Shown here: positions 12,887-61,017 of the stretch, in pieces
How positions within the stretch are numbered: position 1 is the first letter of the stretch
How the letters are laid out: each line of letters opens with the position of its first letter
Source of the DNA: Lentibacillus amyloliquefaciens
GTDB lineage: Bacteria > Bacillota > Bacilli > Bacillales > Amphibacillaceae
Direction: 5' to 3'
Length of the DNA: 64,000 nucleotides
Assembly (NCBI RefSeq): GCF_001307805.1
Contig: NZ_CP013862.1
Location: 1,736,001-1,800,000 of the forward strand
Notes under the pieces: generated by a model
Database searches by the model: none
The model's input: only the letters and a program-made list of their open reading frames with translations
Told to the model about the DNA's origin: nothing
Position numbers and translations under genes: made by a program

Positions 12887-13052
12887 TTATAAAGTGAATC
12901 TTCAATCAGTGGGGGTTTTCTTTCTTCCCCCACTGATTGTTAGATGAACGAATCGGACATTTACTGGCAGCCATCCCCCCACCTAATCTTCATCGTATAC
13001 TCGGAACATTTGAAGTGGGGGTCTTACTGCCAGTTACATGCGGGATAAGATA
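12887..13052 (+). repeat. Two-hairpin repeat element, copy 1 (subtype I)
   Basis: Directly downstream of hmoB. Hairpin 1 is AATCAGTGGGGG paired with CCCCCACTGATT (12904-12938). A conserved linker TTAGATGAACGAATCGGACA follows, then CTGGCAG, a long hairpin closed by CATCCCCCCA and TGGGGGT, and the conserved tail CTTACTGCCAGTTACATGCG. The family has related copies at 19753, 53460 and (minus strand) 60862-61017. It may also terminate hmoB, although no strong T-run follows hairpin 1. Confidence 0.85.
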
Positions 13053-13089
13053 AAAAAAACAAACAAGCTAGAGCACCTGCTCTAGCTTG
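13053..13089 (-). terminator. Terminator of the disulfide-exchange gene pair
   Basis: CAAGCTAGAGCA (13064-13075) pairs with TGCTCTAGCTTG (13078-13089), followed on the minus strand by TTTGTTTTTTTTA. It overlaps the stop of the thioredoxin-like gene. Confidence 0.88.
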
Positions 13090-13585
13090 CTTGTTCATTA
13101 TCTGAATCATTAGCAGCATATTCATTGAAAAAAGCTTCAAACAGTTCATTTTGCTGTGCCCCGTTAACCCGGTCAACTTCTTCTCCATTTTCAAAATAAA
13201 CGAGTGTCGGTGTGCTTTGTATAGCATACTCATTCCACGCACTCTCGAATTCAAGCAGGTTTATTTTTTTCATATCAACATTCATTTCCTCAGCAATCGG
13301 GACAAGCCTTGGTGTTAATTCCTGACAATGCGGACATGTCGGATCATAGAAATAGACCATCATATCTTCACCATTGTTCAGTTTCTCACTCAGCTCATCC
13401 GGTAAAATTTGATTCCCATAGTTAGGATTGTCCAATTGATCAATCGTTGCCTGATGCAGGTCATCTTTTCCATATGGGTTTTCGTTATCACCCATCGCCT
13501 GCTGATTTTTATAATCGATTACGAAATAAAGGGCTGCTAATAATACAACGATAGAGCTTAATATAATCATCATTTTCTTTTTCAT
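13082..13585 (-). CDS. Membrane-anchored thioredoxin-like thiol-disulfide oxidoreductase
   Basis: A 167-residue protein with one N-terminal hydrophobic segment (residues 5-24, signal or anchor) and an extracytoplasmic thioredoxin domain. The active site is CPHC within YFYDPTCPHCQELTP (about residue 88), with the cis-Pro region IQSTPTLVYF. It lies 9 bp after the DsbB-like gene, so the two probably form an oxidative disulfide-forming pair equivalent to BdbC with a BdbA/BdbD-type partner. The exact orthologue cannot be assigned by eye. Confidence 0.8.
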   Translation of the reverse strand: MKKKMMIILSSIVVLLAALYFVIDYKNQQAMGDNENPYGKDDLHQATIDQLDNPNYGNQILPDELSEKLNNGEDMMVYFYDPTCPHCQELTPRLVPIAEEMNVDMKKINLLEFESAWNEYAIQSTPTLVYFENGEEVDRVNGAQQNELFEAFFNEYAANDSDNEQAS

Positions 13586-13594
13586 AGGTTAATG

Positions 13595-14014
13595 TTACCC
13601 CCGTTTCCATATAAGAATATGCAATATAACGATAATAATGAAGGCAGTCCCGGCCAAGAATGGGATTGTGACAAAGCCGAAGTAATTCACGTATTCTGTA
13701 TTACATGGAACAGCGCCGCATGATCCGCCAGCTTCCTGAAGTGCCGGCACTTTCTGCACCATATAATGATAAATCGATACAATCATTCCGATACCACTTA
13801 AAATTAATCCCGGCAGTGCAATAGATGTATCTTTTTTTATAAGAGCTGTTCCGTAGATAATAACCAGCGGGTACATTAAAATCCGCTGAATCCAGCACAG
13901 TTCACAAGGCACGTAACCGAGGATTTCAGAAAAAAACAAGCTGCCGAGTACAGCCACAAGCGACTGTGTCCATATTATCATCAACAATGTTTCGTTTCTT
14001 TTTGCGTTTTCCAT
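13595..14014 (-). CDS. bdbC: DsbB-family disulfide oxidoreductase BdbC
   Basis: A 139-residue, four-helix membrane protein of the DsbB family that reoxidises extracytoplasmic thiol oxidoreductases by passing electrons to quinone. It has the first redox pair in PCELCWIQRIL (about residue 36) and a second pair in GGSCGAVPCNTEYVNYFG. Start ATG 14014 follows AAAGGA. It is upstream of, and probably co-transcribed with, the thioredoxin-like gene. Confidence 0.88.
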   Translation of the reverse strand: MENAKRNETLLMIIWTQSLVAVLGSLFFSEILGYVPCELCWIQRILMYPLVIIYGTALIKKDTSIALPGLILSGIGMIVSIYHYMVQKVPALQEAGGSCGAVPCNTEYVNYFGFVTIPFLAGTAFIIIVILHILIWKRG

Positions 14015-14151
14015 ATGGACGTCCTTTCATTTCATTTCTTACGTATTATACAGTGTAAACCAGCCGAAAATCAAAAAGGAAGTCTCTTGAAAACTGCTAT
14101 AATGATTAGAATAAGACGATTTTGTGAACGAATCTCATTTTCAACTCTCGC

Positions 14152-14799
14152 TTAGGCAGAAGTTTTCCCTCGTAAAGTCTGCAGCCATCTATACAGAAAA
14201 ATCAATCCTGTTAAGTAGATGAAACCAAAAATAAATCCAGCAATCACATCGGTTAAATAATGAACATTAATGATATAACGGCTGATGCCAATCAGAAATA
14301 TAAGCAGTGCCAGTCCGGTTTGAACACTTAATACAACTTTAGGCGATGTGAATTTTTGGGCAACAAAGTAAGCAAGCAAGCCGTAACACACCATCGAAAT
14401 CATCGCATGTCCGGATGGAAAACTGAAACCTTCCGCATTGGCTGCAACAAAAATGCTTGGCCGCTCACGTTCAACAAGCTGCTTAATCAGCACATTCAGG
14501 CCATGGCTCGTCAGTGTTCCCAGCCCAAAAACAAGTCCCGGCAGCCAGTCCCGGAAAGCATACCACAAAACAAGTGCCATAATAATCGTGAATGGTGTCA
14601 GAAACGTACCGGAGCCCAGCTCAGTTAACCAGCGAAATATCGTAAAAATAGTGGTATCCGCAAGTTCGTCCACAAGATTACGTGTTGCCTGATCAAGGTA
14701 GGGCACTTTTTCGTTGATGATACGAAAAACCCATATGCCAATTGTCAGAAGGATTGCTGATAAAACTAAAAAGCGGATATACCTTCGTCTGTTCCGCAC
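14152..14799 (-). CDS. PAP2-family membrane phosphatase
   Basis: A polytopic protein (about six membrane segments, 215 aa) with all three PAP2 motifs: KQLVERERPS, PSGHA, and SRYIINVHYLTDVIAG. These enzymes dephosphorylate lipid pyrophosphates or phosphatidylglycerophosphate at the outer membrane face; the substrate (undecaprenyl-PP or PGP) cannot be told. Start GTG 14799 is 8 nt after AGGAGG; the in-frame TTG at 14805 is too close to it. Confidence 0.88.
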   Translation of the reverse strand: MRNRRRYIRFLVLSAILLTIGIWVFRIINEKVPYLDQATRNLVDELADTTIFTIFRWLTELGSGTFLTPFTIIMALVLWYAFRDWLPGLVFGLGTLTSHGLNVLIKQLVERERPSIFVAANAEGFSFPSGHAMISMVCYGLLAYFVAQKFTSPKVVLSVQTGLALLIFLIGISRYIINVHYLTDVIAGFIFGFIYLTGLIFLYRWLQTLRGKTSA

Positions 14800-14953
14800 A
14801 TTCAATACCTCCTAATACTATCATATCTTATTTTAATCTGTCATAACAGTGTGTATGATCCGAGAATATGTATTATTAATTATGTTTCAGAAGACATAAC
14901 ACAGGGAAGATTAAAGGTGTGCTCTTATTATATTAGAAAGGTTGGGATATTAA

Positions 14954-15391
14954 ATGGATAAAGATCTTCAAAACTTGATTGACGGTCTGAACGATGACTT
15001 GTCACATGAATACGCAGCAGCAATTCAATATACGTACAGCGCGTCGGTTGTCAGCGGCTTATACCGTTCCGCTTTGAAACCGTTCTTTGAAAGCGAGATT
15101 AACGACGAAATGGGACATGCTTTGTATTTATCTGAAAAGATTAAAACACTGGGCGGAACACCAACAACAAAATCTGCTGACGTGGCACAGCCGACAGAAG
15201 TCAAAGACTTATTGGAAGCGTCATTAGAAGCTGAAAAGGCTACAATTGAACGTTATGAAAACCGTAAAAAACAAGCAGAAGCACTAGGCTTCACAGAACT
15301 TGTTGTTAAACTGGAAGATATGATTGCCGATGAAACAGGCCATGAGGAAGAAATACAACGCCTGCTGACTGATCCAAGAGTTAATAATTAA
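14954..15391 (+). CDS. Ferritin-like diiron protein
   Basis: A 145-residue all-helical protein of the ferritin-like superfamily. Likely diiron ligands are E19 (LSHEYAAAIQY), the ESEINDEMGHAL helix and EDMIADETGHEEE. The pattern is that of bacterioferritin/rubrerythrin-type domains without a rubredoxin part. Likely role: iron storage or oxidative protection. It is monocistronic, with a clear terminator. Confidence 0.8.
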   Translation: MDKDLQNLIDGLNDDLSHEYAAAIQYTYSASVVSGLYRSALKPFFESEINDEMGHALYLSEKIKTLGGTPTTKSADVAQPTEVKDLLEASLEAEKATIERYENRKKQAEALGFTELVVKLEDMIADETGHEEEIQRLLTDPRVNN

Positions 15392-15402
15392 AAGAATGGA
15401 GG

Positions 15403-15435
15403 CTGTTCCAAACCTGTCGTTTGGAGCAGTTTTTT
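15403..15435 (+). terminator. Terminator of the ferritin-like gene
   Basis: CTGTTCCAAAC pairs with GTTTGGAGCAG around a 5-nt loop and is followed by six T residues. Confidence 0.92.
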
Positions 15436-15491
15436 AATGCACTTAAATATAAGAATTCCGTCAAGTCAATCCAGTACTCATTTCTAAAAAA

Positions 15492-15500
15492 TGTTATAAT
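15492..15500 (+). promoter_or_regulatory. Extended -10 promoter of the M20 amidohydrolase
   Basis: TGTTATAAT, an extended -10, lies about 31 bp before the TTG start; there is no good -35. Confidence 0.5.
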
Positions 15501-15530
15501 AGTTGAAAAATAATCCGAGGAGGCGTTTCC

Positions 15531-16697
15531 TTGTTACAGGCTATACATAAAAAACTGGATGAACTCTACCCTGAGATGGTAGACATCCGACGCTATCTGC
15601 ACCAATACCCGGAACTCTCGTTTCAGGAGACAAAAACCGCACAATATATCGCCGACTTTTACGAGCAGCTTGCGATCCCCTATCAAAAAAATGTCGGCGG
15701 CAATGGCGTCATTGCTACGTTAAAAGGCGGCAAACCAGGCAAAACGATTGCACTCAGGGCTGATTTCGATGCCTTGCCGATCCAGGATGAAAAAAACGTC
15801 CCCTATAAATCAAAAGTAGATGGTGTTATGCATGCATGTGGTCATGACGGCCATACAGCCTCGCTTTTGACACTGGCCAAAACGATGAAAACCTTCCGGG
15901 ACAGCATGCCGGGAACGATTGTATTTGTGCATCAGCACGCGGAGGAATATGCACCGGGCGGAGCAAAACCGATTGTCGAATCAGGCGCACTTGACCATGT
16001 CGATGCCGTGTTCGGGACACATTTATGGGCCACTACCCCGTTTGGCGTGCTGCAAACAACCAAAGACGTATTCATGGCCGGAACCGACCGTTTCGAAATA
16101 ACAATCCAAGGGCAAGGCGGCCACGGGGCATACCCGCATGAAACGAAAGATGCGATTGTGCTCGGTTCCAAACTGGTGTCAGACCTTCAGCAAATCGTCA
16201 GCAGACGGCTGGACCCACTTGAAACTGCCGTTGTTACAATTGGCGTATTTGAAGCAGGGACAACGTTTAATGTGATTGCAGATAAAGCAAGAATCATCGG
16301 CTCGGTCAGACATTTAAACACTGCTGTTCAGGAAAAAGTCATTGCAGAAATGGAAAAAATTATTCAAGCTGTTTGTGCCGGAAACGATGCGGCCTACACA
16401 TTCGACTATGTTAGAGGCTATCCCCCTCTTGTTAACCATGAAGAGGAAGCAGAACTTGTTTTAAAGGCAGGCAGTAAGGTTGAGGAAGTTCATACCACAG
16501 AAGAAGTAAGGCCGGTTATGGCAGGAGAGGACTTCGCTTATTATACAATTGAAAAACCCGGTGCTTATTTTTTTACAGGGGCACAGAAAGAAGGTAACTA
16601 TTACCCGCACCATCATCCAAAATTTGACATTGATGAACGGGCAATACCTGTTGCGGCCAAAACACTTATCACAGCTTATTTTGAATATCAGACATAA
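15531..16697 (+). CDS. M20-family amidohydrolase (YhaA-like)
   Basis: A 388-residue metal-dependent amidohydrolase of the M20D group (aminoacylase/IAA-amino acid hydrolase-like). Metal-binding motifs include MHACGHDGHTA (about residue 105), HQHAEEYAPGGA and a GxGGHGAYPH dimerisation-domain block; a metal-binding region GEDFAYY lies near the C-terminus. The start is TTG 15531, seven nt after GAGGAGG. In B. subtilis yhaA is next to the ecs genes, as here. The physiological substrate is unknown; N-acyl amino acids are likely. Confidence 0.87.
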   Translation: MLQAIHKKLDELYPEMVDIRRYLHQYPELSFQETKTAQYIADFYEQLAIPYQKNVGGNGVIATLKGGKPGKTIALRADFDALPIQDEKNVPYKSKVDGVMHACGHDGHTASLLTLAKTMKTFRDSMPGTIVFVHQHAEEYAPGGAKPIVESGALDHVDAVFGTHLWATTPFGVLQTTKDVFMAGTDRFEITIQGQGGHGAYPHETKDAIVLGSKLVSDLQQIVSRRLDPLETAVVTIGVFEAGTTFNVIADKARIIGSVRHLNTAVQEKVIAEMEKIIQAVCAGNDAAYTFDYVRGYPPLVNHEEEAELVLKAGSKVEEVHTTEEVRPVMAGEDFAYYTIEKPGAYFFTGAQKEGNYYPHHHPKFDIDERAIPVAAKTLITAYFEYQT

Positions 16698-16722
16698 TTT
16701 GTTCAAGCAGAAAAAACACAGT

Positions 16723-16755
16723 AAAAGGCTGATCTTCAATGAGATCAGCCTTTTT
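16723..16755. terminator. Bidirectional terminator between the amidohydrolase and ecsB
   Basis: GGCTGATCT (16727-16735) pairs with AGATCAGCC (16742-16750), flanked by AAAA on the left and TTTTT on the right, so it can serve both convergent genes. Confidence 0.88.
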
Positions 16756-17972
16756 CATGATGCGCCTATTTTTTTCTTAACATATCTTTGAATAAACACG
16801 TAATTAAACAGCATGCCGCCAGCCAATACAGCCGCCGCACCAATCCATTCCTGCAAGCCGATAAATAACAGATCAAAGATAACCGTCTGAATCAGCATCA
16901 GCTGAAACAAAAGCTTTATGAGCGACTGCTCTTTCACACCCTCAGGAACCGGGTATAAATCAAGCCACATCACAGTCTTGTGGTGGTGGTATAATGTCAT
17001 CATCTGAAAAACGCTCATATATAAGAACAGCAGTGCAAAGAGCAACTTCATCCATATATTCGGGACGAAAACAATGAACAGCCCGCCGATCACAATCAGT
17101 CTGATGTACATCCCCAAATAGTCACCGCTGCGAACAAAGGAAATACGATATAAATAATCAAACGTATGCTTGTTCAAAAATGGCACTCTCGTGACAATCG
17201 ATACGAGCCAGTGCCTGCTTTTCACCTGATTTTTTAAATGAGGAACATCCGCAAACATATTGGCAATCCTGTAAAATGTCTGCATGCGGTTCCGGTCTTT
17301 CTCCACCAATAAGTCCCAGGCAATGCCGGGCTGTTTTCGGGAAACATTTAAATCATACAAGAACACCAGCGCAAATAATACAGTTGTCACACCGGCCCAA
17401 ACCGTCTCCCCTTCTACAAGAAAGTAAAAAACAGCCAAATTGAGCAGCAGCCGTACGCCCTGATCTACCCGGCGTGTCGCGGGCTCCCTTATTTTAAGCA
17501 TCCACCAGGTTGCAATTAAATTACCGGCTTTAAACACAAGGACTATAAGCAATATCAGCAAATAAACATTGCCTGCCCGCTCCGGATAAGAGGCAAAATA
17601 AAGCGGACCGAACGCTGCGCCTGCGAGCAGTATCAAATATAGCTGGACGACATAACTGTAAACCAGAGCATCCCTGAAATACGGTCCCATTTTATTCTCT
17701 GCAGCAATCAAAAACACTAAGTCGGGTTCTTTCAAGAGCGTTCTGGCCGGACTGTAACTGACCAAAAGGCCGAATGTTATGCCAATGATTGCTGCGGTGG
17801 GAAAGTCTTCCGGCAGTCCTTGGAGCCATTGCTGATAATAATAAGCCACAGCTGATACAAAAAAGAACATGGCAAATGCGATGTGACTGTTAAAAATGTA
17901 ACGTAGGTAGCGGCTGGTTTCCTTTATATGTGCCGCAAAACGCCCTTTAAAAAAGGCATGCGCATCAAACAT
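16755..17972 (-). CDS. ecsB: ABC transporter permease EcsB
   Basis: A 405-residue polytopic membrane protein with hydrophobic segments throughout and a charged region near residues 215-270. It is the partner of the EcsA ATPase. Ecs affects secretion, regulated intramembrane proteolysis (RasP) and competence in B. subtilis; the substrate has been proposed to be peptides. It starts within the last 8 bp of ecsA. The usual third gene ecsC is absent; the convergent amidohydrolase follows directly. Confidence 0.88.
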   Translation of the reverse strand: MFDAHAFFKGRFAAHIKETSRYLRYIFNSHIAFAMFFFVSAVAYYYQQWLQGLPEDFPTAAIIGITFGLLVSYSPARTLLKEPDLVFLIAAENKMGPYFRDALVYSYVVQLYLILLAGAAFGPLYFASYPERAGNVYLLILLIVLVFKAGNLIATWWMLKIREPATRRVDQGVRLLLNLAVFYFLVEGETVWAGVTTVLFALVFLYDLNVSRKQPGIAWDLLVEKDRNRMQTFYRIANMFADVPHLKNQVKSRHWLVSIVTRVPFLNKHTFDYLYRISFVRSGDYLGMYIRLIVIGGLFIVFVPNIWMKLLFALLFLYMSVFQMMTLYHHHKTVMWLDLYPVPEGVKEQSLIKLLFQLMLIQTVIFDLLFIGLQEWIGAAAVLAGGMLFNYVFIQRYVKKKIGAS

Positions 17973-18708
17973 GGCTATCTTCCTTTGTCAATTCCACATA
18001 TAAATCATCAAGAGCTGCCTCAGGCATATTGAAGTCCCGGCGTAATTCATCAAGTGTGCCGATTGCTCTGATCTCACCTTCATGCAGGATAATAAACCGG
18101 TCACAATTTCGTTCAGCTGTTGCCAGAATATGTGTTGACATTAAGACACCCGATCCATCTGACTTCATGTTATCCATCATCTGCAAGTAGGATTTTATGC
18201 CAAGCGGATCAAGCCCGACAAACGGCTCGTCCACTATATAAAGCGGCGGTTCAATCAAAAATGCACACATAATCATAACTTTTTGCCGCATCCCTTTTGA
18301 AAAATGTGTTGGAAACCACTGCAGCCGCTTTTCCATTCGAAACTCTTTAAGCAGCGGCGGAAGTCTTTTTTTAAACACATCTTCTGAAATATTATAGGCC
18401 ATTGCCGTCAGCCTGAGATGCTCGTATAGAGTCAATTCATCATACAGAATCGGCATTTCCGGTATATATGCCATTTGGTTCCTGTATGTGTCCGGATTTT
18501 CCTGAAACGTTTTTCCGTTGACAGCAACGGTTCCTCTTTTGGCCTGCATCAAACCGATGATATGTTTAATTGTCGTACTCTTGCCGGCACCATTCAATCC
18601 GATAAGCCCGACAATTTCGCCGGGATAAAGATCAAACGATATGCCGTGCAGCACGTTTTTATGTGTATAACCGCCATGTAAATTATCGATACGAAGCAAA
18701 GGTTCCAC
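17965..18708 (-). CDS. ecsA: ABC transporter ATP-binding protein EcsA
   Basis: A 247-residue ATPase with Walker A GLNGAGKSTT, a divergent signature region FSKGMRQKVMIMCAF, and Walker B LYIVDEPFVGLDP. The start is a GTG at 18708 after GGGAGG. It overlaps ecsB by 8 bp and is divergent from hit, the same arrangement as in B. subtilis. Confidence 0.93.
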   Translation of the reverse strand: MEPLLRIDNLHGGYTHKNVLHGISFDLYPGEIVGLIGLNGAGKSTTIKHIIGLMQAKRGTVAVNGKTFQENPDTYRNQMAYIPEMPILYDELTLYEHLRLTAMAYNISEDVFKKRLPPLLKEFRMEKRLQWFPTHFSKGMRQKVMIMCAFLIEPPLYIVDEPFVGLDPLGIKSYLQMMDNMKSDGSGVLMSTHILATAERNCDRFIILHEGEIRAIGTLDELRRDFNMPEAALDDLYVELTKEDSHV

Positions 18709-19325
18709 AAGCGTTCCTCCCAGTTCTCACTTAATTAAAATTTTACCACGTTTACCCCGTCATAACAAAACAAACTCCTCGCCTCTATTCGACAACACCG
18801 GATGTAATATTTGAAAGACATCCTATCAAAGGGGTCTTGCTTTAAAATTAATCAATAAAGATGTATAAAAAATATATGACCGCAACACACTATAAATGAA
18901 GCAAAGAGGATGTACAAAATCATATAATTTCGCATTACACACAAATGAGGTGTTTGTGATCGGTAATTAGGTGATTGTCAGAAGAGATCTTAAGTTGCGC
19001 ATCATAATTGATGTAAAGCGGATCTTCCAAACGTTCCATCTAATGCTTTAAACCTTTTTGCCAGAACGTCCCAAGCCACTTGGGACATTGACAAATCGGT
19101 TTTTGTAATAACGTTAAAAGCAACATGCGGTTTAACAAAGATTACAAAGTCCCCAACGTTAGATGCATTGTCATCCTCTTGCTTCTTAAAGCAGGCAGAC
19201 TCACTTAAAACGTGAGTCTGGCCTGTTATTTTTTTGTTTTCAGTTCTTTTACGCCATTCACAAAGCTTTACTTTTCACCCGATTTCTTTATACAATGATT
19301 AAAAACAGGTATAGGAGTGATTGGC
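18709..19325. other. Long ecsA-hit intergenic region with an internal hairpin
   Basis: About 600 bp with no credible ORF. It contains a perfect hairpin GTCCCAAG-cca-CTTGGGAC near 19067-19085 without a T-run, and a strong terminator at 19192-19235. Promoters for ecsA and hit must also lie here, but I cannot pick them with confidence. Confidence 0.5.
19192..19235 (+). terminator. Orphan terminator or attenuator upstream of hit
   Basis: CAGACTCAC pairs with GTGAGTCTG around a 7-nt loop (19196-19220), extended imperfectly by CAGG and CCTG, and followed by TTATTTTTTTG. No gene precedes it on this strand, so it ends an unseen RNA or attenuates hit. Confidence 0.75.
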
Positions 19326-19751
19326 ATGGCTCATGAAGATTGTATTTTTTGTAAGATCATTGATGGCGAAATTCCATCAGCAAAGGTTTATGAGGATGAC
19401 GACGTTTATGCATTCCTTGATATCAGTCAAGTGACGAAAGGGCATACATTGGTGATTCCAAAAACACATACAAAAAATATTTATGAAACACCCCCTGAAG
19501 TCGCCGGTAAATTATTTGAGCGTGTTCCATATATCGCAAATGCTATTAAAAAAGCATATCAGCCAGCCGGCATGAACTTGCTTAACAATAATGAGAAACT
19601 TGCAGACCAGTCAGTATTCCATCTACATATCCATCTCTTGCCCCGCTATGGAGATGAAGACGGCTTCTCATTCAATTGGCAGGTTTATTCGGATGATTAC
19701 TCCCAGGACGATCTGCAGCAAATTGCTAAAGAAATTAATGAAGCATTGTAA
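19326..19751 (+). CDS. hit: HIT-family nucleotide-binding protein
   Basis: A 141-residue histidine-triad hydrolase of the Hint type (acts on nucleoside phosphoramidates or AMP-linked compounds). It starts AHEDCIFCKIIDGEIPS and has the triad FHLHIHLLPR near residue 100. ATG 19326 is used because GGAGTG lies 6 nt before it; an in-frame GTG at 19317 is part of that site. Divergent from ecsA. Confidence 0.92.
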   Translation: MAHEDCIFCKIIDGEIPSAKVYEDDDVYAFLDISQVTKGHTLVIPKTHTKNIYETPPEVAGKLFERVPYIANAIKKAYQPAGMNLLNNNEKLADQSVFHLHIHLLPRYGDEDGFSFNWQVYSDDYSQDDLQQIAKEINEAL

Positions 19752-19752
19752 G

Positions 19753-19872
19753 TAAAGCGAAACTTCATTCAGCGGGGTGTTTTTCCGCTGAATGTTAGTT
19801 GAGCAGAATCGGGCATTTAGGAACAGTTAGCCGCTGTTTTTAAGCGGTTTACTGTCCTGTACATGCGGGATA
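19753..19872 (+). repeat. Two-hairpin repeat element, copy 2 (subtype II)
   Basis: Directly after hit. Hairpin 1 is CATTCAGCGG paired with CCGCTGAATG. The linker TTAGTTGAGCAGAATCGGGC leads to CATTTAGGAACAGTTA, hairpin 2 CCGC-tgtttttaa-GCGG, and the tail TTTACTGTCCTGTACATGCG. The layout is the same as copies at 12887, 53460 and 60862, with different stem sequences. Confidence 0.85.
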
Positions 19873-19918
19873 TAAGGGTCAGAAAATTATAACTGTACTG
19901 TATATTTTCAAGCTTTTC

Positions 19919-19927
19919 TGTTATAAT
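19919..19927 (+). promoter_or_regulatory. Extended -10 promoter of trpP
   Basis: TGTTATAAT at 19919-19927, about 80 bp upstream of trpP, places the transcript start so that the leader contains the TRAP-like triplets. Confidence 0.55.
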
Positions 19928-19979
19928 GAGTTTACGCTTTCGCAGCTGGCAATCAGTGCACAGCTGGAAAACTAAAAAC

Positions 19980-20027
19980 GAGGTTAGCTGAGAAGAGGAG
20001 AGGTAAAAATGAATACGAGGGTTTTAG
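19980..20027 (+). promoter_or_regulatory. TRAP-type binding site over the trpP ribosome-binding site
   Basis: Triplets GAG, TAG, GAG, GAG, GAG begin at 19980, 19985, 19990, 19995 and 20000, exactly 2 nt apart, and cover the Shine-Dalgarno. GAG at 20017 and TAG at 20025 follow inside the coding start; CAG triplets lie upstream. Known TRAP targets have GAG/TAG repeats with 2-3 nt spacers, and TRAP represses trpP translation in B. subtilis. This predicts repression by tryptophan-bound TRAP. Confidence 0.75.
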
Positions 20028-20530
20028 TGCTTTTATCATTGTTATTGGGGATTGGTGCTGTTTTACACTTTGTCGTTCCACCCTTTATTTACGGAATGAA
20101 ACCAGACATGCTGCTGTCTATGATGTTTTTGGGTATCATTCTGTTTCCTAAGACAAATTATGTTGTGGTGTTATCTTTAGCGGCAGGCGTCATTTCCGCT
20201 TTAACAACTCAGACACCCGGCGGACAGATTGCCAACATGATTGATAAACCAATCACCGGTATTTTGTTTTTCGCTTTGCTGCTGTTAGTGAAAGACCGGA
20301 TAAATCCTAAATTTAATGTTCCAGTATTAACAGCCATCGGAACAATGATTAGCGGTTCCATATTTTTAACAGTGGCACTTTATATGATTGGTCTGATGGA
20401 AGGGGCATTTCTGGTATTGTTCGGAACCATTGTGCTGCCCGCAGCTGCATTGAATACAGCATTCATGATTATCATCTACCCAATCGTTCAAAACATTTTA
20501 AAACAGTCACGCCCGCTGTCTACCGTCTGA
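20009..20530 (+). CDS. trpP: Tryptophan transporter TrpP
   Basis: A 173-residue integral membrane protein with about five to six hydrophobic segments. It has the family blocks GAVLHFVVPPFIYGMKPDM and GVISALTTQTPGGQIANMID, closely like B. subtilis TrpP (YhaG), the TRAP-controlled tryptophan uptake protein. The family resembles substrate-binding S components, but no energising gene is adjacent. Start ATG 20009; translation is predicted to be controlled by the overlapping triplet array. Confidence 0.88.
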   Translation: MNTRVLVLLSLLLGIGAVLHFVVPPFIYGMKPDMLLSMMFLGIILFPKTNYVVVLSLAAGVISALTTQTPGGQIANMIDKPITGILFFALLLLVKDRINPKFNVPVLTAIGTMISGSIFLTVALYMIGLMEGAFLVLFGTIVLPAAALNTAFMIIIYPIVQNILKQSRPLSTV

Positions 20531-50924: not shown

Positions 50925-50965
50925 AAAGTAAAACTTCATTCAGGGGGCGATTTTTCCCGGTGAAT
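50925..50965 (+). repeat. Remnant of the two-hairpin element (hairpin 1 only)
   Basis: AAAACTTCATTCAGGGGG, then a loop and CCCGGTGAATGT, resembles the first hairpin of copies at 19753 and 53460. The second half is missing. It lies antisense, just upstream of map. Confidence 0.5.
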
Positions 50966-51168: not shown

Positions 51169-51175
51169 TTAGTCT

Positions 51176-53682: not shown

Positions 53683-54150
53683 TTATTCTGCAAAAACCTG
53701 ATTCCACTCATCTTTTTTAGCGAGCATATCTTCAGCAATCGTTTTCGCACCTTCAAGACTATGGTTGGCTGCCCAGCCGCACTGCACTTCATTGCATGCC
53801 GGCACTTCATCCGCGTTGAGAACATCTTTTAATGTGTTTTCAAGTGCACTAGTGACATCATCATAGCTATCATTGTTCAAGATTTGCAAATAAAAACCTG
53901 TCTGGCATCCCATCGGGCCAATGTCAAGAACATTTTCCATGTGATTGCGGATATTTTCTGCCATTAAATGTTCTATTGAATGTAATCCCGGCATATCCAT
54001 ATGTTCTTTATTCGGCTGTTTAAACCGGATATCGTATTTATATACCTTATCTCCACTCATCCCTGTCGTGACACCAGTCAAACGAACATAAGGCGCTGCA
54101 ACTTTTGTGTGATCCAGATTAAAACTTTCCACGTTCATTTTTTCAGCCAT
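53683..54150 (-). CDS. luxS: S-ribosylhomocysteine lyase LuxS
   Basis: Splits S-ribosylhomocysteine into homocysteine and the AI-2 precursor DPD. The 155-residue protein has the metal motif [14 protein letters not shown] and the catalytic Cys/second-shell region [11 protein letters not shown], with the third ligand His missing from view only because of spacing: [19 protein letters not shown] 54150 follows AAGGAG. Monocistronic. Confidence 0.93.
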
Positions 54151-54270
54151 GAATATCGCTCCTTTATTGACTAAAACGCATCATTTCTAACTCAAAGTTA
54201 ACATTAAAACCAGCAAGTGTAAAAAATTCTGTACACGGAACGATTATTCATTGAAGATTGAATGACAAAC

Positions 54271-54309
54271 AAAAAAGGGTGAACACATGACCTGTGCCAC
54301 CCTTTTTTT
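54271..54309. terminator. Bidirectional terminator between the spore lipoprotein gene and luxS
   Basis: AAAAAAGGGTG pairs with CACCCTTTTTTT, with an inner ACACA/TGTG pairing. Confidence 0.88.
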
Positions 54310-54314
54310 GTTTG

Positions 54315-54992
54315 TTAATTATTATCCTGCTGTGGAAAGACGCGTTCAATCATATTGCCCATTTGGTCGAACAGCCCTTCAACAGGTTCACCGCTGTCAG
54401 CATCATCAGCATAATTATTGGCCAGATCCATGAAATCAGGGTTTGTCGACACATACACATTGTCAACGTCCGAATCCACATCTTTTACGATGCCGGAGAT
54501 TTTTTCTTTCACAGCATCTGTGAGCTCGCCGCCTTTATTGTTGTTATCGTTATTATTGGTTGTCCCATTAATATTTGCGCCGTTATTATTGTTGGTATTG
54601 TTGTTGGCGTTGTTACCATTATTATTGTTGCCGTTGTTGTCCTGGTCAAGTTCAGCAGCTACATATGCATTATTGTCCGTTTTGATAACATAGGCATTGT
54701 CAATTCCATCAACGTCGTTTGCAATACGTTCGGCTGCTTCATCAGCCAATTCATACTGATCTTCATTATTTCCTCCGTCATTTGTATTGCGTGTCCGGTT
54801 GCCATTGTTAAACTCGTTGTCGTTCCGGTTGTTCATGTTGTCGTTATCCATATCACCATCAAAACGGGTTTGTTCAACATTATTATCATTTTGACCTTCT
54901 TCTGTACCATTGTTGTTCTGGTTATCGGTTCCACAAGCAGCAAGAACAAGGAACATGGCAATCAGTAATAGGCTAAAAAGTTTCCATTTCAT
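54315..54992 (-). CDS. YhcN/YlaJ-family sporulation lipoprotein, Asn-rich
   Basis: A 225-residue lipoprotein: lipobox LAAC (Cys 20), an Asn/Asp-rich linker to about residue 78, then the YhcN/YlaJ domain (ELADEAAERIANDVDGIDNAYVI, and KEKISGIVKDVDSDVDNVYVS). The domain is split by an Asn/Gly run of about 35 residues (about 119-153). Family members sit in the spore inner membrane or cortex region and influence germination. ATG 54992 follows AAGGAGG. Confidence 0.85.
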   Translation of the reverse strand: MKWKLFSLLLIAMFLVLAACGTDNQNNNGTEEGQNDNNVEQTRFDGDMDNDNMNNRNDNEFNNGNRTRNTNDGGNNEDQYELADEAAERIANDVDGIDNAYVIKTDNNAYVAAELDQDNNGNNNNGNNANNNTNNNNGANINGTTNNNDNNNKGGELTDAVKEKISGIVKDVDSDVDNVYVSTNPDFMDLANNYADDADSGEPVEGLFDQMGNMIERVFPQQDNN

Positions 54993-55151
54993 AGTTAAAT
55001 CCTCCTTACCGTTTTGTCGTTAGTATGCAGCAGTAATAAGGATTTATACGTTAACAGAAATTGGCAATGACACCAAATTTGTTTCAGACAATATAAATGA
55101 AATTTGGGAAGGCTAATAACTGATCCTTTTCTATATGAAGGAGGTCAAATA

Positions 55152-55388
55152 ATGGAAATAGCTGATTATGACAAAGCGTTATATTTCACCTTGTGGGGAC
55201 AGTGGGATGAATTGCTTGTACTGATGGTACGCACAAATGATGACATGCTGTCCAAAAAAATCCAGTTTTTCCTGCATGCTTATCACTACTCGCCTGAACA
55301 AGTAAAAATTATCGAAACACATGACGAGTTGCTGTATTATATTGACCATGCTATGAAATACACGCCACCTGTTGCGATGGAAGTATAA
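55152..55388 (+). CDS. YhdB-like small protein
   Basis: A 78-residue soluble protein: EIADYDKALYFTLWGQWDEL, then MVRTNDDMLSKKIQFFLHAY. Resembles the B. subtilis YhdB family, function unknown. ATG 55152 is preceded by AAGGAGG at good spacing. Its 3' flank is the left end of the IS element. Confidence 0.65.
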   Translation: MEIADYDKALYFTLWGQWDELLVLMVRTNDDMLSKKIQFFLHAYHYSPEQVKIIETHDELLYYIDHAMKYTPPVAMEV

Positions 55389-55459
55389 AAAAATACCTTT
55401 ACAGGGTTGTAAAGCACTTTAAAGTAGGAAAGAGGCTGGGACAAAACCCAGTAAAATTG

Positions 55460-55505
55460 AAAAAGCGTGGTACTTATCGATTAGGTAATGTACCACGCTT
55501 TTTTT
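55460..55505 (+). terminator. Terminator at the left end of the IS
   Basis: AAAGCGTGGTAC pairs with GTACCACGCTTT, followed by T residues; likely shields the transposase from read-through transcription. Confidence 0.85.
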
Positions 55506-55590
55506 ATATTATCGTTAATTTTTAGTAAACAAAAAGGATCGCCTCTGATAAAATTAAAGTAACCACACAATAACCATCGGAGGGATCCTT

Positions 55591-57339
55591 ATGTTTAAAC
55601 ATTATAACATGAATCAAGTGGTTTTGCCTTTAGATTTAGAAATAAAAATAGAGGAAAATGATATTGCCTATGCCGTCAATGACGTCGTGGAAACTATCCC
55701 GGATGATGCCTTCACAGGTTTCCGGCGCGAAACAGGCTGCCCAGCTTATCATCCGCGCATGATGATGAAGATTATTTTATGTGCTTACACGCAATCTGTT
55801 TTCTCCGGCAGAAAGATCGAAGGATTACTACATGACAGTGTCCGTATGATGTGGCTGGCTCAGGGATATGAACCAACGTATCGCACCATCAATCGATTTC
55901 GTGTGCATCCAGAGGTTAAAGAGTTATTGCGTCAATGCTTCGTCCAATTCCGCTGCCAGCTTGTACAGGAAAAACAGATTGATGAAGAAGCGATTTTCAT
56001 CGATGGGACCAAGATTGAAGCGAATGCCAATAAATACACATTTGTTTGGCGGAAAGCGATAGAGAAACACAGCGCCAAATTGGTGGAGAAGTCCAATCAA
56101 ATGTATGATGAATTGCTGGAAAACGAAATTATCCCGGAGATTGAACGGGAAAGCGAGGACGAATTATCCACCGATGAACTCAGGCAAATAGCTGAGAAAC
56201 TGGATGAGAAAGTCGAAGCGTATGACAAAGAGATTGAGGCACGTGAAAAAGGAAGCGAACGGAAACAGCTTCGTTCCGAACGTAAAGCACCGAAACAATA
56301 CCGCAAACGGTTCAGGGACTTTGTCGTGCGCAAACAGAAATATAAGCAGGACATGAAAATTTTCGGGGAACGCAACAGTTACTCCAAGACAGACCATGAT
56401 GCCACGTTTATGCGCATGAAAGATGACCATATGAGGAACGGCCAGCTGAAAGCAGGTTATAATGTGCAGCTTGCGACAGAGGGTCAATACGCGCTCGCTT
56501 ACGATGTATTCCCAAACCCGACGGACACACGTACTTTCGTTCCTTTCCTGGATCATATTGAGGAAGGTTACTTTGAGCTGCCTAAGTATATTGTGGCTGA
56601 CGCAGGTTATGGCAGTGAACAAAATTACGAAGACGTCCTCGAGAACCGGGAACGCACGCCCCTGATTACATACAACCAATACCGGAAAGAAAAGAAAAAG
56701 AAATACAGAAATAACCCTTTCCATTCCGCCAATTGGGAATATAACACGGAAAACGATTATTTTATCTGCCCGAATGACCAAAAAGTAACATTCCGTTACC
56801 TATCCCAACGAACAGACCGGTACGGCTATACACGGACCTTCAGAGTTTACGAGTGTGAGGACTGTTCAGGGTGCCCACTGCGTTCCCAATGCACCAAAGC
56901 GAAGGAAGGGAATAACCGGAAAATTTATTATAACGCGAAGTGGGAAAGCCAAAAAGCCTACACAAGACAACAGCTTTCGGAAGAAGAAACTGGCGAAGTT
57001 TACGGGCGACGTAAAATCGATGTGGAGCCAGTCTTCGGATTTCTGAAGGCTAATTTGCGTTTCCCGCGTTTCTCAGTCAGGGGGCAGGAGAAAGTGAAAA
57101 ATGAATTAGGATTTGCATTCATGGCGGTGAACTTGAGAAAGTACACCGCCAAAAAGACAAATCCTACCTTAGATAATAACAACCATTTAAATCAAAAAGG
57201 TTCCAACCATCAAAAACTGATGATTGGAACCCTTTTTAAGTCATTTTTGGCTAGTTATGTCCCAGCCTCTTTCCTTTATGATATCCTGATTATTTTGGGC
57301 CTTTACCATTGTTATGTTTTCCTTTGTCATGACCTTTAG
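55591..57339 (+). CDS. IS1182-family DDE transposase
   Basis: A 582-residue transposase: N-terminal DUF772-type domain (ETGCPAYHPRMMMKIILCAYTQ), catalytic region IDGTKIEANANKYTFVW (first Asp), VADAGYGSEQNYE (second Asp), a Cys cluster (YECEDCSGCPLRSQC) and GRRKIDVEPVFGFLKANLRF (Glu). ATG 55591 follows GGAGGG. The frame does not stop before the right inverted repeat; it continues 65 bp into flanking DNA and overlaps the 3' end of rsgI on the other strand. Confidence 0.92.
   Translation: MFKHYNMNQVVLPLDLEIKIEENDIAYAVNDVVETIPDDAFTGFRRETGCPAYHPRMMMKIILCAYTQSVFSGRKIEGLLHDSVRMMWLAQGYEPTYRTINRFRVHPEVKELLRQCFVQFRCQLVQEKQIDEEAIFIDGTKIEANANKYTFVWRKAIEKHSAKLVEKSNQMYDELLENEIIPEIERESEDELSTDELRQIAEKLDEKVEAYDKEIEAREKGSERKQLRSERKAPKQYRKRFRDFVVRKQKYKQDMKIFGERNSYSKTDHDATFMRMKDDHMRNGQLKAGYNVQLATEGQYALAYDVFPNPTDTRTFVPFLDHIEEGYFELPKYIVADAGYGSEQNYEDVLENRERTPLITYNQYRKEKKKKYRNNPFHSANWEYNTENDYFICPNDQKVTFRYLSQRTDRYGYTRTFRVYECEDCSGCPLRSQCTKAKEGNNRKIYYNAKWESQKAYTRQQLSEEETGEVYGRRKIDVEPVFGFLKANLRFPRFSVRGQEKVKNELGFAFMAVNLRKYTAKKTNPTLDNNNHLNQKGSNHQKLMIGTLFKSFLASYVPASFLYDILIILGLYHCYVFLCHDL
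57194..57237 (+). terminator. Terminator-like hairpin near the right end of the IS
   Basis: GGTTCCAACCATC pairs with GATGATTGGAACC, followed by CTTTTT; it lies within the transposase frame. Confidence 0.8.
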
Positions 57340-58579
57340 CTTTGCCGTTGTTATGGTTGGTCTTACCATGACCTTTGGCTTTGCCGTTGTTATGGTTGGA
57401 CTTGCCATGGCCTTTGGCTTTGCCGTTGTTATGTTTGGATTTGTCATGACCCTTAGCTTTGCCGTTGTTATGTTTGGATTTGTCATGGCCTTTAGCTTTG
57501 CCGTTGTTATGTTTGGACTTGCCATGGCCTTTAGCTTTGCCGTTGTTATGTTTGGATTTGTCATGACCCTTAGCTTTGCCGTTATTATAGTTGGCTTTGC
57601 CCTCGTCATGATTATTTGTATTTTTATTTCCAGGTCCATTTCTTTTTGTATCGCTGTTTGGCTTACTATTGTTAGTCTTCAACCCGGTATTTTGATTCTT
57701 CTTTTGGCTGCTTTCAGGTTTATCCGGCTGTTCGGATTTTATGGCAGGATTTTCATCGGAAGATTCTATATGCTCGCTTTTGTCTGTATCTTTTTCATTG
57801 GAATTGGAACCGGAATCTGAATTATCTTGCTGTATGTTGTAAAATGAATGTATAATATCTCTTTCATCATCATTAATGAAGGTATCCATTTCTGCTTGAA
57901 TACTGTTTTTTAAGCTAACATTTTCATTTGAAAGGTTTCTTGCCATCAATTCATTCATCGATCGCTCATTGTCCAGCGACTTATCATGGATTTCTTTTGG
58001 GATCTGAAACGTTACAATCCCCCAGTCTTGATCATTCTCCCCAAAATACTCATCAATCATTTGTGTCACAGAAAATTCTTCTTGTGCATCCTCAGCATAA
58101 CTGACACCTGCAAGTATATTTTTGCCGTTCTTTAACAGGGCTGCTTCTTCACTTTTAGTAATAATCTGCTGAATGACCTTTTCTAAATGCTTCCCTTTAT
58201 AACCTGTCAGCATTGGAAGAAACGATTTAGCATCATCATTCAAAGGCGCTATCGACTTAACATTCAGTTGATTATCAATTTCCAATTCCAAATTTGGATT
58301 GATTGTAATATTAACATATGCATATGTTTTGTCTTTATCTGTCATAAAATAAAACGGCACAAAAAGCAGCATTAGGCACGCCATTACAGCTGCGAATGCG
58401 CCGCGTTTTTTATTGTTTATGTAGTGAAACATCTTAGGGCGCTGAGCGGAAAGCGGCTGGTAATTGACTTCCATGCCAATCGATACATTTTCCAGGGGAC
58501 GCGCTTTTTGAAACGTACCATCTCTTCGCATTACAATGATGTAATTGCGATGTTTTTCCATCACAATTCCTTTTTTCAC
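57290..58579 (-). CDS. rsgI: Anti-sigma-I factor RsgI-like with tandem-repeat tail
   Basis: A 429-residue membrane protein. The N-terminal RsgI anti-sigma domain (about residues 5-55, MEKHRNYIIVMRRDGTFQKA) is cytoplasmic, one membrane helix follows (about 60-81), and then an extracellular domain AYVNITINPNLELEIDNQLNV to about residue 250. A Ser/Asp/Lys linker leads to seven 13-residue repeats at the C-terminus. It restrains SigI. The GTG start overlaps the sigI stop (TAGTG), so translation is coupled. The IS right end lies 16 bp beyond its stop. Confidence 0.88.
   Translation of the reverse strand: MKKGIVMEKHRNYIIVMRRDGTFQKARPLENVSIGMEVNYQPLSAQRPKMFHYINNKKRGAFAAVMACLMLLFVPFYFMTDKDKTYAYVNITINPNLELEIDNQLNVKSIAPLNDDAKSFLPMLTGYKGKHLEKVIQQIITKSEEAALLKNGKNILAGVSYAEDAQEEFSVTQMIDEYFGENDQDWGIVTFQIPKEIHDKSLDNERSMNELMARNLSNENVSLKNSIQAEMDTFINDDERDIIHSFYNIQQDNSDSGSNSNEKDTDKSEHIESSDENPAIKSEQPDKPESSQKKNQNTGLKTNNSKPNSDTKRNGPGNKNTNNHDEGKANYNNGKAKGHDKSKHNNGKAKGHGKSKHNNGKAKGHDKSKHNNGKAKGHDKSKHNNGKAKGHGKSNHNNGKAKGHGKTNHNNGKAKGHDKGKHNNGKGPK
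57293..57586 (-). repeat. 39-bp coding tandem repeat in rsgI
   Basis: Seven full copies and a partial one of a 13-residue unit NNGKAKGHDKSKH, with D/G, S/T and K/N variation, at residues 332-429. Composition is Lys, His, Asn and Gly only, so the tail is cationic and unstructured and could bind wall polymers or metal. Confidence 0.9.
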
Positions 58580-59310
58580 TAACCCACCCCCTTAAGATAC
58601 TCCTTAAGATACGTATAATCTCCATCCAGAATTATAAAAATTGCGAGAATGAACTTTCGGTTTCGCTCCAGCGTTTTTTTACTGACATTTACCTGCCTGG
58701 CCAAATCTTTTAGCGGCATTTTTTTCTTAGCTTTAACATAAGAATTGAATTCCGCATCGTTATGCAGCATCCGTGCAACTGAAATTGCTGTTTCGCGGGC
58801 ATCCCGATGTTTGGGTGAAACCTTTGTCAGCTGACTTAAAGACAACCTGTAGATGTCGAGCTTCTCTTTGAAATCTAAAATTTCTTCGCGGAGCTGAAGA
58901 GCATGCTGTTCTTTCCGATAGGACTCATTAACCGCCAATATTTCAACCGGATTCTCCATTTGTTCCTCATTATAGTTATCATCCAAGGACACTGTTGCTG
59001 GCGTTTTTTGGATATAACGGATATAATCAATGACTTTTCGTTTCACCACAAGTTTAGAAAAAGCCAGAAAAGAACCGCCTTTTTTCGGGCAATAAGACAT
59101 CATGGCCTCATTAAAAGCATTTAAGCCAACGCTGAATTCATCATCAGTTTGCGGATCGATATAACGCTTGCACACTTCTGAAACGCATTTAGCGATAAAT
59201 GGCTGATAGGATTTCAGAAGATGATGTTGAATCCCCTGATCCCCCTCCTGAGCTGAAAGTATCATATCTTCAAGTGGTGTTTCTGTTAATGGCTGATTGC
59301 TCATAAACAT
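58579..59310 (-). CDS. sigI: RNA polymerase sigma factor SigI
   Basis: A 243-residue sigma-70-related factor. The region-2 block is FSVGLNAFNEAMMSYCPKKGGSF and VVKRKVIDYIRYIQK; the C-terminal HTH is LKDLARQVNVSKKTLERNRKFI. In Bacillus SigI governs heat and cell-wall-related genes and its own operon. ATG 59310 follows GGAGGTG. Operon sigI-rsgI; the 270 bp upstream is AT-rich and I find no convincing SigI-type promoter by eye. Confidence 0.92.
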   Translation of the reverse strand: MFMSNQPLTETPLEDMILSAQEGDQGIQHHLLKSYQPFIAKCVSEVCKRYIDPQTDDEFSVGLNAFNEAMMSYCPKKGGSFLAFSKLVVKRKVIDYIRYIQKTPATVSLDDNYNEEQMENPVEILAVNESYRKEQHALQLREEILDFKEKLDIYRLSLSQLTKVSPKHRDARETAISVARMLHNDAEFNSYVKAKKKMPLKDLARQVNVSKKTLERNRKFILAIFIILDGDYTYLKEYLKGVG

Positions 59311-59583
59311 ACAACACCTCCAGCCACTATAAAATACGGTTCTAACAAGTGTTTTATGGGTGTAGGTTTAAGTGTATTCATTTTAGTTCGAGTTAATTCG
59401 TTATTGTTCAGCATACATTCACCATCTTTTATGAGAATCTGACTGATTTCCCTAATCGTAACGTATCAAGCCACCTGTTTCGACAACAGATGTATTACAT
59501 TTCATTTAAAAACACGTTACTTTTTTAAGACAGCAGTATTTAAAGAAACTTTTCGTGAATTTCACTGTCCATTGATCCTCGCA

Positions 59584-60034
59584 ATTGATAAAAACTGCGA
59601 CGTAAGTGCTATGTTGATTACCGTTCCGGGCAGTCGCGCACCTTAGGGCAACGCTCCAGCCTCCTCGGAAGAAAACCGCTTCCTGCTCAGGTCTAGCTGC
59701 CCGTTTTCCCGCAGGAGTCGACTGCCCTCCACTCCAATCAACATTCACAAGAGAAGTTTAGTTAAGATCCAAAATAATGAGATTATAAAGCGCGACACCA
59801 GCGGAGGAAATACACGACGGCTCCTGCGGGAGAAAAGGCATCGGTGAGACCCCGCAGTGCGACAGCAATCTTTTCTGCGAGGAGTGCTGCTTCCACTGAA
59901 TCAACTTGCAACACAACGAGCACGAGGAGGCTCACCAGCCGCCCTAAGGCGCGCGGAGTGTATTTCCGGAGCGGTAGACGACGCACAACTTACACCTAAA
60001 GTTATTTCGCAGTTTATGGATCTTGTGTCATAAC
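59584..60034. repeat. Composite palindromic repeat, copy C
   Basis: About 450 bp between sigI and the PRC-barrel gene. Arms as in copies A and B: AATCAACAT-type outer pairing with GGGCAGTCG/CGACTGCCC in the left arm, and GGAAATACAC/GTGTATTTCC in the right arm. Ends: TTGATAAAAACTGCGACGTA on the left; GTTATTTCGCAGTTTATGGA on the right. Open frames inside are repeat-derived. Confidence 0.88.
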
Positions 60035-60059
60035 AACAATCTTTAAGAAGACAGCCATA

Positions 60060-60116
60060 ATAAAAATAAAGGTGTACTCTAAAAGTCAGGATAAGACATG
60101 ACTTTTAGAGTACACC
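60060..60116 (-). terminator. Very long-stem terminator of the PRC-barrel gene
   Basis: A perfect 18-bp stem (60071-60088 with 60099-60116) and 10-nt loop, followed on the minus strand by TTTATTTTTA; 28 bp beyond the stop. Confidence 0.85.
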
Positions 60117-60144
60117 TGGAACTAACTATTCTTTTCATAAATGG

Positions 60145-60846
60145 TCATAATGCTTCAATGATGGCTTCTTTTGATTCATAATCTGTTTGGTCGTTCAGGT
60201 CCTCCAAATCGCTATCGATGTAGATATCGCCCCCCAGCCAATCGACTGACTGGATTATATCAACCTTTAAAGCAAGAAATCTATCCTCAGAAGGAAGGTG
60301 TGCCTTTTGGATCACAATATATCGTATTTTCCAATAACTGTCATCAATTATAAAATCCGCAACATCACCGATTTTGCCATCATTCGCATGAACTCTGAAC
60401 TCCCATGTGTCATTTTCACTGCGCAAATTGTGTTCAGGTTCATTCGACATTTCTTGTGCTTCCAGTTCCTGATCATCGATATTGACTCCGGGCATGTCCT
60501 CGACACCCCAGAGCAGACCACCCAGCCAATATCTGCTCCAGCCGTAATAACCTGTCAAAGCCATTTCCAAATCCTTGGAAAAGGTAGCATCTACCGGGAT
60601 TGAAGGGCTGTTTCGGACAGTTTCTTTGTCATGTTTCACATCGATTTGCTGATTGTCAGTATCAATTGATGCAAAAGCCGCCGGTGAAAGCAGTATACGT
60701 CTTGTCGGCAGCCATTTTCTCGCATCCAGTACAGCATAACGGACGACCCATTTTTTATCATCAAAATACAAATCCTGAATCTTTCCCATCTGTCCATCAG
60801 AAGCTTCAATATGATATGTGTTTAAATCTGTTGTGAAATACAGCAT
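60145..60846 (-). CDS. Tandem PRC-barrel domain protein
   Basis: A 233-residue soluble acidic protein with two PRC-barrel modules: residues about 5-72 (DGQMGKIQDLYFDDKKWVVRYAVLD) and about 145-215 (DGKIGDVADFIIDDSYWKIRYIVIQ). PRC-barrels occur in photosynthetic reaction centres, RimM and stress proteins; the role here is unknown. ATG 60846 follows GGAGG and lies 16 bp after a two-hairpin repeat. Confidence 0.82.
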   Translation of the reverse strand: MLYFTTDLNTYHIEASDGQMGKIQDLYFDDKKWVVRYAVLDARKWLPTRRILLSPAAFASIDTDNQQIDVKHDKETVRNSPSIPVDATFSKDLEMALTGYYGWSRYWLGGLLWGVEDMPGVNIDDQELEAQEMSNEPEHNLRSENDTWEFRVHANDGKIGDVADFIIDDSYWKIRYIVIQKAHLPSEDRFLALKVDIIQSVDWLGGDIYIDSDLEDLNDQTDYESKEAIIEAL

Positions 60847-60861
60847 TGTAAACCTCCTACT

Positions 60862-61017
60862 GTTTATCCCGCATGTAACTGACAGTAAGACCCCATCTCA
60901 AATGTGCGCGTATACGATAAAGATTATTTGGGGGATGGCTGCCAGTATATGTCCGATTCGTTCATCTAACAATCAGCAGGGGAAGAAAGATACCCCTCTG
61001 ATTGAATATATTCACTT
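60862..61017 (-). repeat. Two-hairpin repeat element, copy 4 (subtype I, minus strand)
   Basis: Read on the minus strand: AATCAGAGGGG...CCCCTGCTGATT, linker TTAGATGAACGAATCGGACA, CTGGCAG, then the CATCCCCC hairpin closed by TGGGG and the tail CTTACTGTCAGTTACATGCG. Nearly the same as copy 1 in linker and tail but with changed stem bases. Its end is 16 bp from the PRC-barrel gene start. Confidence 0.85.

Follow-up and report, generated by a model that had tools for sequence, protein, structure and literature searches.

What are the two-hairpin sequences that recur in a 64,000-nucleotide stretch of the Lentibacillus amyloliquefaciens chromosome (NZ_CP013862.1, positions 1736001-1800000; hereafter the window)? 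A preliminary description had reported four dispersed copies with compensatory stem changes. That observation is correct but falls short of the real extent, since all four come from a large family. Members of the family are dispersed and intergenic, terminate in ATAAA-like pentamers, are missing from corresponding sites in relatives, retain their pairing through compensatory changes and, in four of five genomes, are oriented in relation to replication. The family is probably a widespread non-autonomous mobile repeat, resembling miniature inverted-repeat transposable elements (MITEs) without terminal inverted repeats, which would insert at ATAAA during replication via a single strand whose fold is recognised. 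That the repeat looks mobile is new with respect to the preliminary description.

The copies and their parts are given below in window coordinates. Copy boundaries include the flanking pentamers, and the bit scores come from a rescan of the window with R1, a covariance model built from 26 copies of the same genome (alignment A2), these four among them.

12888-13049, + strand: copy A, long subtype, left pentamer ATAAA (12889-12893), right pentamer ATAAG (13045-13049); 132.4 bits
12894-12949, + strand: hairpin 1 of copy A, with a 2x2 GA/GA internal loop close to the foot
12950-12956, + strand: conserved linker GAATCGG of copy A
12957-13043 (limits approximate), + strand: hairpin 2 of copy A, with stems CTGGCAG/CTGCCAG and CCCCCAC/GTGGGGG
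19751-19874, + strand: copy B, short subtype, left GTAAA, right ATATA, flanked by a HIT-domain gene and trpP; 122.9 bits
53458-53586, + strand: copy C, short subtype, left ATAAA, right GAAAA; 134.3 bits
60863-61021, - strand: copy D, long subtype, ATAAA at both ends; 109.2 bits
50922-51004, + strand: possible decayed hairpin 1; 14.1 bits, E 0.34

All four copies reported are present, with the refined boundaries listed, and the order of parts proposed for them is found in copies A to D. The two subtypes extend to the whole genome, where the lengths of 150 matches are bimodal (mainly 115-134 and 145-164 bases). The remnant reported at 50925-50965 looks by eye like a decayed hairpin 1; given its score, it is not established as such. 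Two features had been overlooked: hairpin 1 continues through complementary AWCT/AGWT residues, and ATAAA occurs at both ends. The segments previously described as a GnCAG block and as TTACTGnC had also not been seen to be opposite sides of one hairpin 2 stem.

The genome is a single contig of 3,858,284 bases. A 14-base core, allowing up to 2 mismatches, occurs 262 + 234 times in it, versus 54 + 52 for the reversed control pattern, and R1 matches all of the 150 candidates scored (E <=0.01); the repeat is thus not due to chance. Since only part of 1431 candidates was scored, the copy number of at least 150 is a lower limit. A cross-family model, R2, gave a poorer consensus structure, and no search rests on it. 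Nine of 12 genomes of the genus are positive (E 1e-4): seven have 27-149 matches, two have 6 and 2, and three have none. Positive genomes make up 98 of 159 in the family (32/46 genera), 112 of 397 in the order (54/135 genera) and 40 of 398 in the class (23/146 genera); the samples are nested within one another, and in the wider searches only 18 or 7 candidates were scored for each genome, under stricter filtering. The covariance-model search of relatives proposed at the outset thus traces the family far beyond the genome of origin, up to the class level. Lentibacillus, Oceanobacillus, Aquibacillus and Virgibacillus are among the hosts (73 loci). Repeats are also carried by plasmids, as full copies in Pseudalkalibacillus and as partial copies in Peribacillus.

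Members of the family share one fold. Hairpin 1 starts with G-C and U-A pairs at its foot, followed by a 2x2 internal loop, four pairs (AACU/AGUU or AUCU/AGAU), a small bulge and then a long stem; the linker GAATCGG joins it to hairpin 2. The latter comprises, from the outside inwards, an outer part of CATT/ATG or CCTT/AAGG, a middle stem that varies in sequence (CTGGCAG/CTGCCAG and GGACAGT/ACTGTCC, among others) and an inner stem, the long or short end of which marks the two subtypes. In A2, 95.3% of cells are paired and 15 of 36 pairs feature two-sided changes; shuffled alignments average 11.1 such pairs (15 reached in 1/500), and slid structures yield at most 5 pairs, with 31.5-44.5% of cells paired. 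Further pair types discriminate less, as the real value was reached in 28 of 500 shuffles. Changes are more extensive in A6, an alignment of 43 distinct copies from the whole class: 95.7% of cells are paired and 30/36 pairs changed on both sides (shuffle mean 13.8, 30 reached in 0/500; slid structures, at most 14 pairs and 45.1% paired). A6 leans towards the structure because it was fitted to the model. The same compensation emerges when hairpin 1 is counted on sequence anchors alone, in 189 of 203 copies (the 14 hairpins with fewer than 6 of 9 pairs were dropped); at one position A-T occurs 97, T-A 83 and C-G 6 times. Pairing is therefore kept despite stem changes, as the preliminary description had noticed, and the selection on RNA or DNA secondary structure that it suggested is supported by covariation persisting in larger alignments. 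The family still cannot be named: no Rfam family is matched at gathering score across the window, and for five loci the search returned only four hits to unrelated families, all scoring far short of the gathering cut-off.

The folding of the two strands was compared in elements 110-175 bases long whose ends could be recognised. In 146 of 172 of them the written strand (ATAAAGTGAA...) has the better RNA fold (mean -56.2 kcal/mol, vs -50.9 for the complement); DNA parameters favour it in 107. The 2x2 loop of hairpin 1 is GA/GA in 139/155 copies. Such loops can adopt tandem sheared G-A pairing in RNA as well as in DNA; the complement would carry C-T mismatches. In four partly overlapping alignments, from which rows with fewer than 25 usable pairs or less than 75% Watson-Crick pairs were left out, G-U pairs exceed A-C pairs (46:16 in the class-wide one, 31:16, 96:72 and 51:22), and they do so in the anchored count of hairpin 1 (29:13). 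The data suggest that selection acts on the written strand, in the form of RNA or of single-stranded DNA.

Ends and flanks have been analyzed in 57 of the at least 150 copies, each with 1 kb of flanking sequence. The left pentamer is ATAAA in 48/57; the right one is ATAAA in 34 and GAAAA in 7, and 30 copies have ATAAA at both sides. No strong base preference is found outside the pentamers. The elements begin with GTGAA and end with GCGGG, and no terminal inverted repeats are seen by eye in alignments A2 and A5. All 57 sit between open reading frames (ORFs) of at least 90 codons, such ORFs overlapping 6 of them. Tandem copies have one pentamer in common: in 8 pairs of neighbours the model matches overlap by six bases, one more than the pentamer. 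Arrays with common pentamers reach five copies in G483:C1:1671664-1672431 and four in G143:C145:6716-7333. Of the 57 copies, 26 match another copy of the genome at 90% or more, the highest value being 97.6%.

Sites without the element were sought in 11 genomes of the genus by joining the flanks of seven copies around one pentamer. Orthologous flanks are about 66-84% identical between species, and exact junctions are clear at some sites only. At six of the seven loci alignments pass through the site in relatives with no element in between; for the seventh (1366955) a spanning match appears only in the flank search. The site of copy D is element-free in the four relatives aligned (G007, G004, G005 and G010), and in G004 (L288) exactly one ATAAA is found there, shortly upstream of AGGAGG. 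At locus 345323 the stop codon TAA of a gene lies within the left ATAAA, and relatives devoid of the element have TAA in 4/6 cases and TGA in one; as the stop is kept where no element resides, the left pentamer derives from the target. Some relatives give two separate pieces at a site, as G007 at that of copy A, and L302 lacks the motif that starts hairpin 1.

Orientation follows replication in four of five genomes. Copies run against the leading strand in L. amyloliquefaciens (104/150, p 2.5e-6), G140 (82/90, p 1.4e-16), G236 (40/56, p 0.002; best 56 of 60 matches) and G010 (37/57, p 0.03; best 57 of 63 matches). Origin and terminus were placed by eye from sampled GC skew, and p values treat tandem copies as independent; under nine choices of origin and terminus, 45-48 of the 150 copies of the first genome run with the leading strand. 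The bias has been compared with the direction of the neighbouring genes in small numbers of loci, 55 of the 57 copies and 27 of 28 G140 loci (28 of the best in that genome) having both neighbours. When these lie on the leading strand, 17/25 elements in L. amyloliquefaciens and 12/13 in G140 oppose it; with both on the lagging strand, 7/9 and 2/2 elements nonetheless run against the leading strand. Next to convergent or divergent genes the same holds for 11 of 12 G140 copies. Gene direction does not explain orientation well; replication is followed more closely. In this arrangement the strand bearing TTTAT is the lagging-strand template.

A mobile repeat of the kind favoured here would work as follows. 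The target would be the pentamer ATAAA (TTTAT on the opposite strand), and insertion would take place at forks, while the chromosome replicates. The intermediate may be a single-stranded DNA or an RNA form of one strand, presumably the written one, recognised by its two-hairpin fold, and a trans-acting enzyme would perform the insertion. Insertion itself, rather than later selection, would create the orientation bias.

Several findings weigh against this reading, and the first concern the enzyme. None was found by means of PF01797 (Y1 transposases) or PF00078 (RVT_1), each tested as one Pfam family in 12 genomes, several of them draft assemblies. PF01797, which gave matches in Escherichia coli and 4 others of 14 control genomes, has no match in the L. 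amyloliquefaciens genome in spite of its copy number, and matches 10 of the 12 genomes of the genus, including all three without elements. No R1 match resides in 20 Y1 loci of the genus, and the hairpin 1 motif is absent from these loci and from 30 reverse transcriptase (RT) loci. RVT_1 matches 8/12 genomes; it is missing from the element-rich G003 (90 copies) and G007 (70 copies), yet present in G006, which has no copies. The Y1 transposase, with no match in the genome and no correlation in the genus, and the RT, uncorrelated with element presence, were both rejected as mobilisers. The enzyme may have been lost or be located elsewhere. An autonomous version, with a gene between the hairpins, was also looked for: no pair of ends enclosing a gene was found in 386 partly overlapping loci (2.28 Mb), where the strict motif search paired just 191 of 323 five-prime ends. 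As a separate observation, contig C7 of G009, a genome with only 6 elements, has four RVT_1 matches, corresponding to three equal-scoring RT genes of 619 codons and one of 621.

Other adverse points regard target, strand and orientation. Duplication of a 5-bp target would account equally for the ends observed. At locus 3203827 the best relative (L277, 84% identity) reads ATAAATAAA at the empty site; as these are two overlapping pentamers, a single pentamer is not demonstrated there. The better-folding strand is not the one found on the lagging-strand template. G483 is unbiased (19/37; best 37 of 58 matches), its skew being weak and its origin and terminus uncertain. Beside convergent or divergent genes, only 12/21 L. 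amyloliquefaciens copies oppose the leading strand, the convergent group being split 5 to 5. At 144 loci of other genomes, after removal of duplicates by flank, 65 elements have the same direction as the local coding strand and 79 the opposite one (p 0.28), with no significant trend.

A bolder form of the favoured interpretation sees in the family a class-wide, previously undescribed element of Bacilli, replication-coupled and moving as a single strand, which would be recognised through the fold of one strand (two long hairpins with a tandem G-A loop); the enzyme moving it would belong neither to the PF01797 Y1 nor to the RVT_1 type. We advance it tentatively, as doubtful in its full extent; an enzyme of neither type, if confirmed, would mean a new mobility mechanism.

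The nearest known mechanism is that of the IS200/IS605 family (Y1 HUH transposases), and the repeats could be non-autonomous derivatives of it: the 5'-TTTAT|...TTTAT-3' strand would be active, the hairpins would correspond to the end hairpins, and a TnpA acting in trans would insert 3' of TTTAT on the lagging-strand template. Lack of inverted repeats, hairpins at the ends, a short asymmetric target (here a pentamer), TTTAT on the lagging-strand template and an orientation tied to replication in 4/5 genomes are all in keeping with such an origin; according to PMC5371812 and PMC6006769, IS608 and ISDra2 favour the lagging-strand template, and orientation in their family likewise tracks replication. 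However, a genome with at least 150 copies has no PF01797 match, Y1-positive genomes free of elements exist, and none of the 20 Y1 loci contains one. The long, covarying hairpins exceed the 20-25 nt given in PMC6006769, and it is the complementary strand that folds better; with TTTAT on the lagging-strand template and the other strand the better folder, a plain IS200/IS605 scheme cannot accommodate the two facts together. Membership is not claimed because the defining transposase was looked for and not found, and an origin of this kind seems unlikely.

A retrotransposed small RNA, akin to short interspersed nuclear elements (SINEs), is an alternative of far lower probability. The written strand would be the RNA, its 3' AUAAA would anneal to TTTAT at a nick in the lagging-strand template, from where an RT would extend. 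The RNA-type features of the written strand (excess of G-U, GA/GA loop, lower energy as RNA) would suit this scheme, and the orientation is compatible with priming on the lagging-strand template; however, RVT_1 is not matched in two element-rich genomes and is matched in one without elements. We know of no precedent for such an element, which also counts against it.

It is slightly less probable still that the repeats are cis-acting mRNA elements, such as structures or processing sites in untranslated regions (UTRs), spread and retained for gene regulation. Their intergenic position, often beside a gene end, and the RNA-type covariation would fit this role, and bcr1-bcr3 are frequently found in UTRs in Bacillus cereus according to PMC3446304. 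Nevertheless, sense orientation is not enriched, flanking-gene pairs being 19 antisense vs 15 sense in L. amyloliquefaciens and 52 vs 36 elsewhere.

Motifs of selected orientation, such as KOPS and Chi, are known, and the least probable explanation is that the repeats organise the chromosome in the same manner without being actively mobile: the strong replication-relative orientation in G140 and the closer link of orientation to replication than to gene direction would agree with it, but 3/12 genomes of the genus have no match, copies are absent at the orthologous sites compared, and the bias is only moderate in three genomes and missing in G483.

As a non-autonomous mobile repeat, the family has several published counterparts, likened to it by description only. 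The nearest is bcr1, one of the group A repeats (bcr1-bcr3) of the B. cereus group, which is similar in size, copy number, TTTAT motif, intergenic position and MITE-like character. TTTAT is said, in the 2004 work of Okstad, to flank each end of bcr1, a feature encountered here as TTTAT/ATAAA at both ends of 30/57 copies. The bcr1 repeat measures 147-167 bp (table in PMC2267715), is present in 11-130 copies per genome, with the TTTAT motif tied to mobility (PMC6542083), and is intergenic and MITE-like (PMC3446304). It is reported as restricted to that group, whereas the Lentibacillus family has named hosts in other genera. Bhal-1 of B. halodurans, Efa-1 of Enterococcus faecalis and similar repeats are intergenic as well, with conserved stem-loops and lengths up to about 163 bp (PMC2267715). 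Repetitive extragenic palindromes (REPs) and bacterial interspersed mosaic elements (BIMEs), moved by REP-associated tyrosine transposases (RAYTs, TnpA_REP), are likewise palindromic, intergenic and at times arranged in tandem. REPs differ in size (20-40 bp) and in carrying GTAG or CGTC tags, as stated in PMC3733652, and the test for a RAYT gene was negative (no PF01797 match in the L. amyloliquefaciens genome). MITEs of the RUP, NEMIS and ERIC type are small, non-coding and multicopy, with a short target repeated at both ends, but have terminal inverted repeats, none of which is seen by eye in the Lentibacillus family. No description of the family under another name was found in the literature covered, which did not extend to the main bcr1 papers. 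A relation to bcr1 would connect repeats so far reported from the B. cereus group alone to a structured family found across dozens of genera of Bacilli. The family offers one consensus fold and a rule that can be tested, an ATAAA target with an orientation set by the fork, and the alignments supply a family model with no counterpart in Rfam.

Carriage by phages was rejected. One copy, used as query, found no match among 50,697 phage records, and two pattern scans of IMG/VR led to 3 and 1 contigs, in which the matches are weak, shortened or interrupted copies. In one of these contigs (L275, about 10051-10106, - strand) a deletion derivative has kept both ends and lost most of both hairpins. In some copies the 3' side of hairpin 1 is replaced by a foreign module (AACAAAGGCTAAG...CGCCTTTGTGACCT...GCAGGCC). 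Such copies were identified in several genomes and a viral contig (L007, about 1420-1495; L085:626-812, - strand; L068:1501-1570, - strand; L274:9084-9310). L013 and L029 have in the right flank a common downstream sequence, GGACCGAGAAGTTCGAGGCGGC, apparently a different repeat. A shortened copy bounded by ATAAA on either side resides in a Klebsiella grimontii plasmid, pNY3A (CP079755.1; L272:3000-3092), in a stretch of 29-35% G+C close to restriction and DUF262 genes. The record may be contaminated, or its low-G+C stretch may be of Gram-positive origin.

In the window, copy A starts 3 bases past the stop codon of a gene encoding an ABM domain (Pfam). Copy C separates an M20 peptidase gene from luxS, two genes of the - strand, and by eye it is followed by a second, partial copy that begins at about 53582. 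Copy D is flanked by a gene for a trypsin-like protease and a PRC-barrel gene, and is spanned by an antisense ORF of 91 codons. Elsewhere in the chromosome, at loci 104630 and 3203827, the element is placed, by eye, between a stop codon and an apparent intrinsic terminator hairpin.

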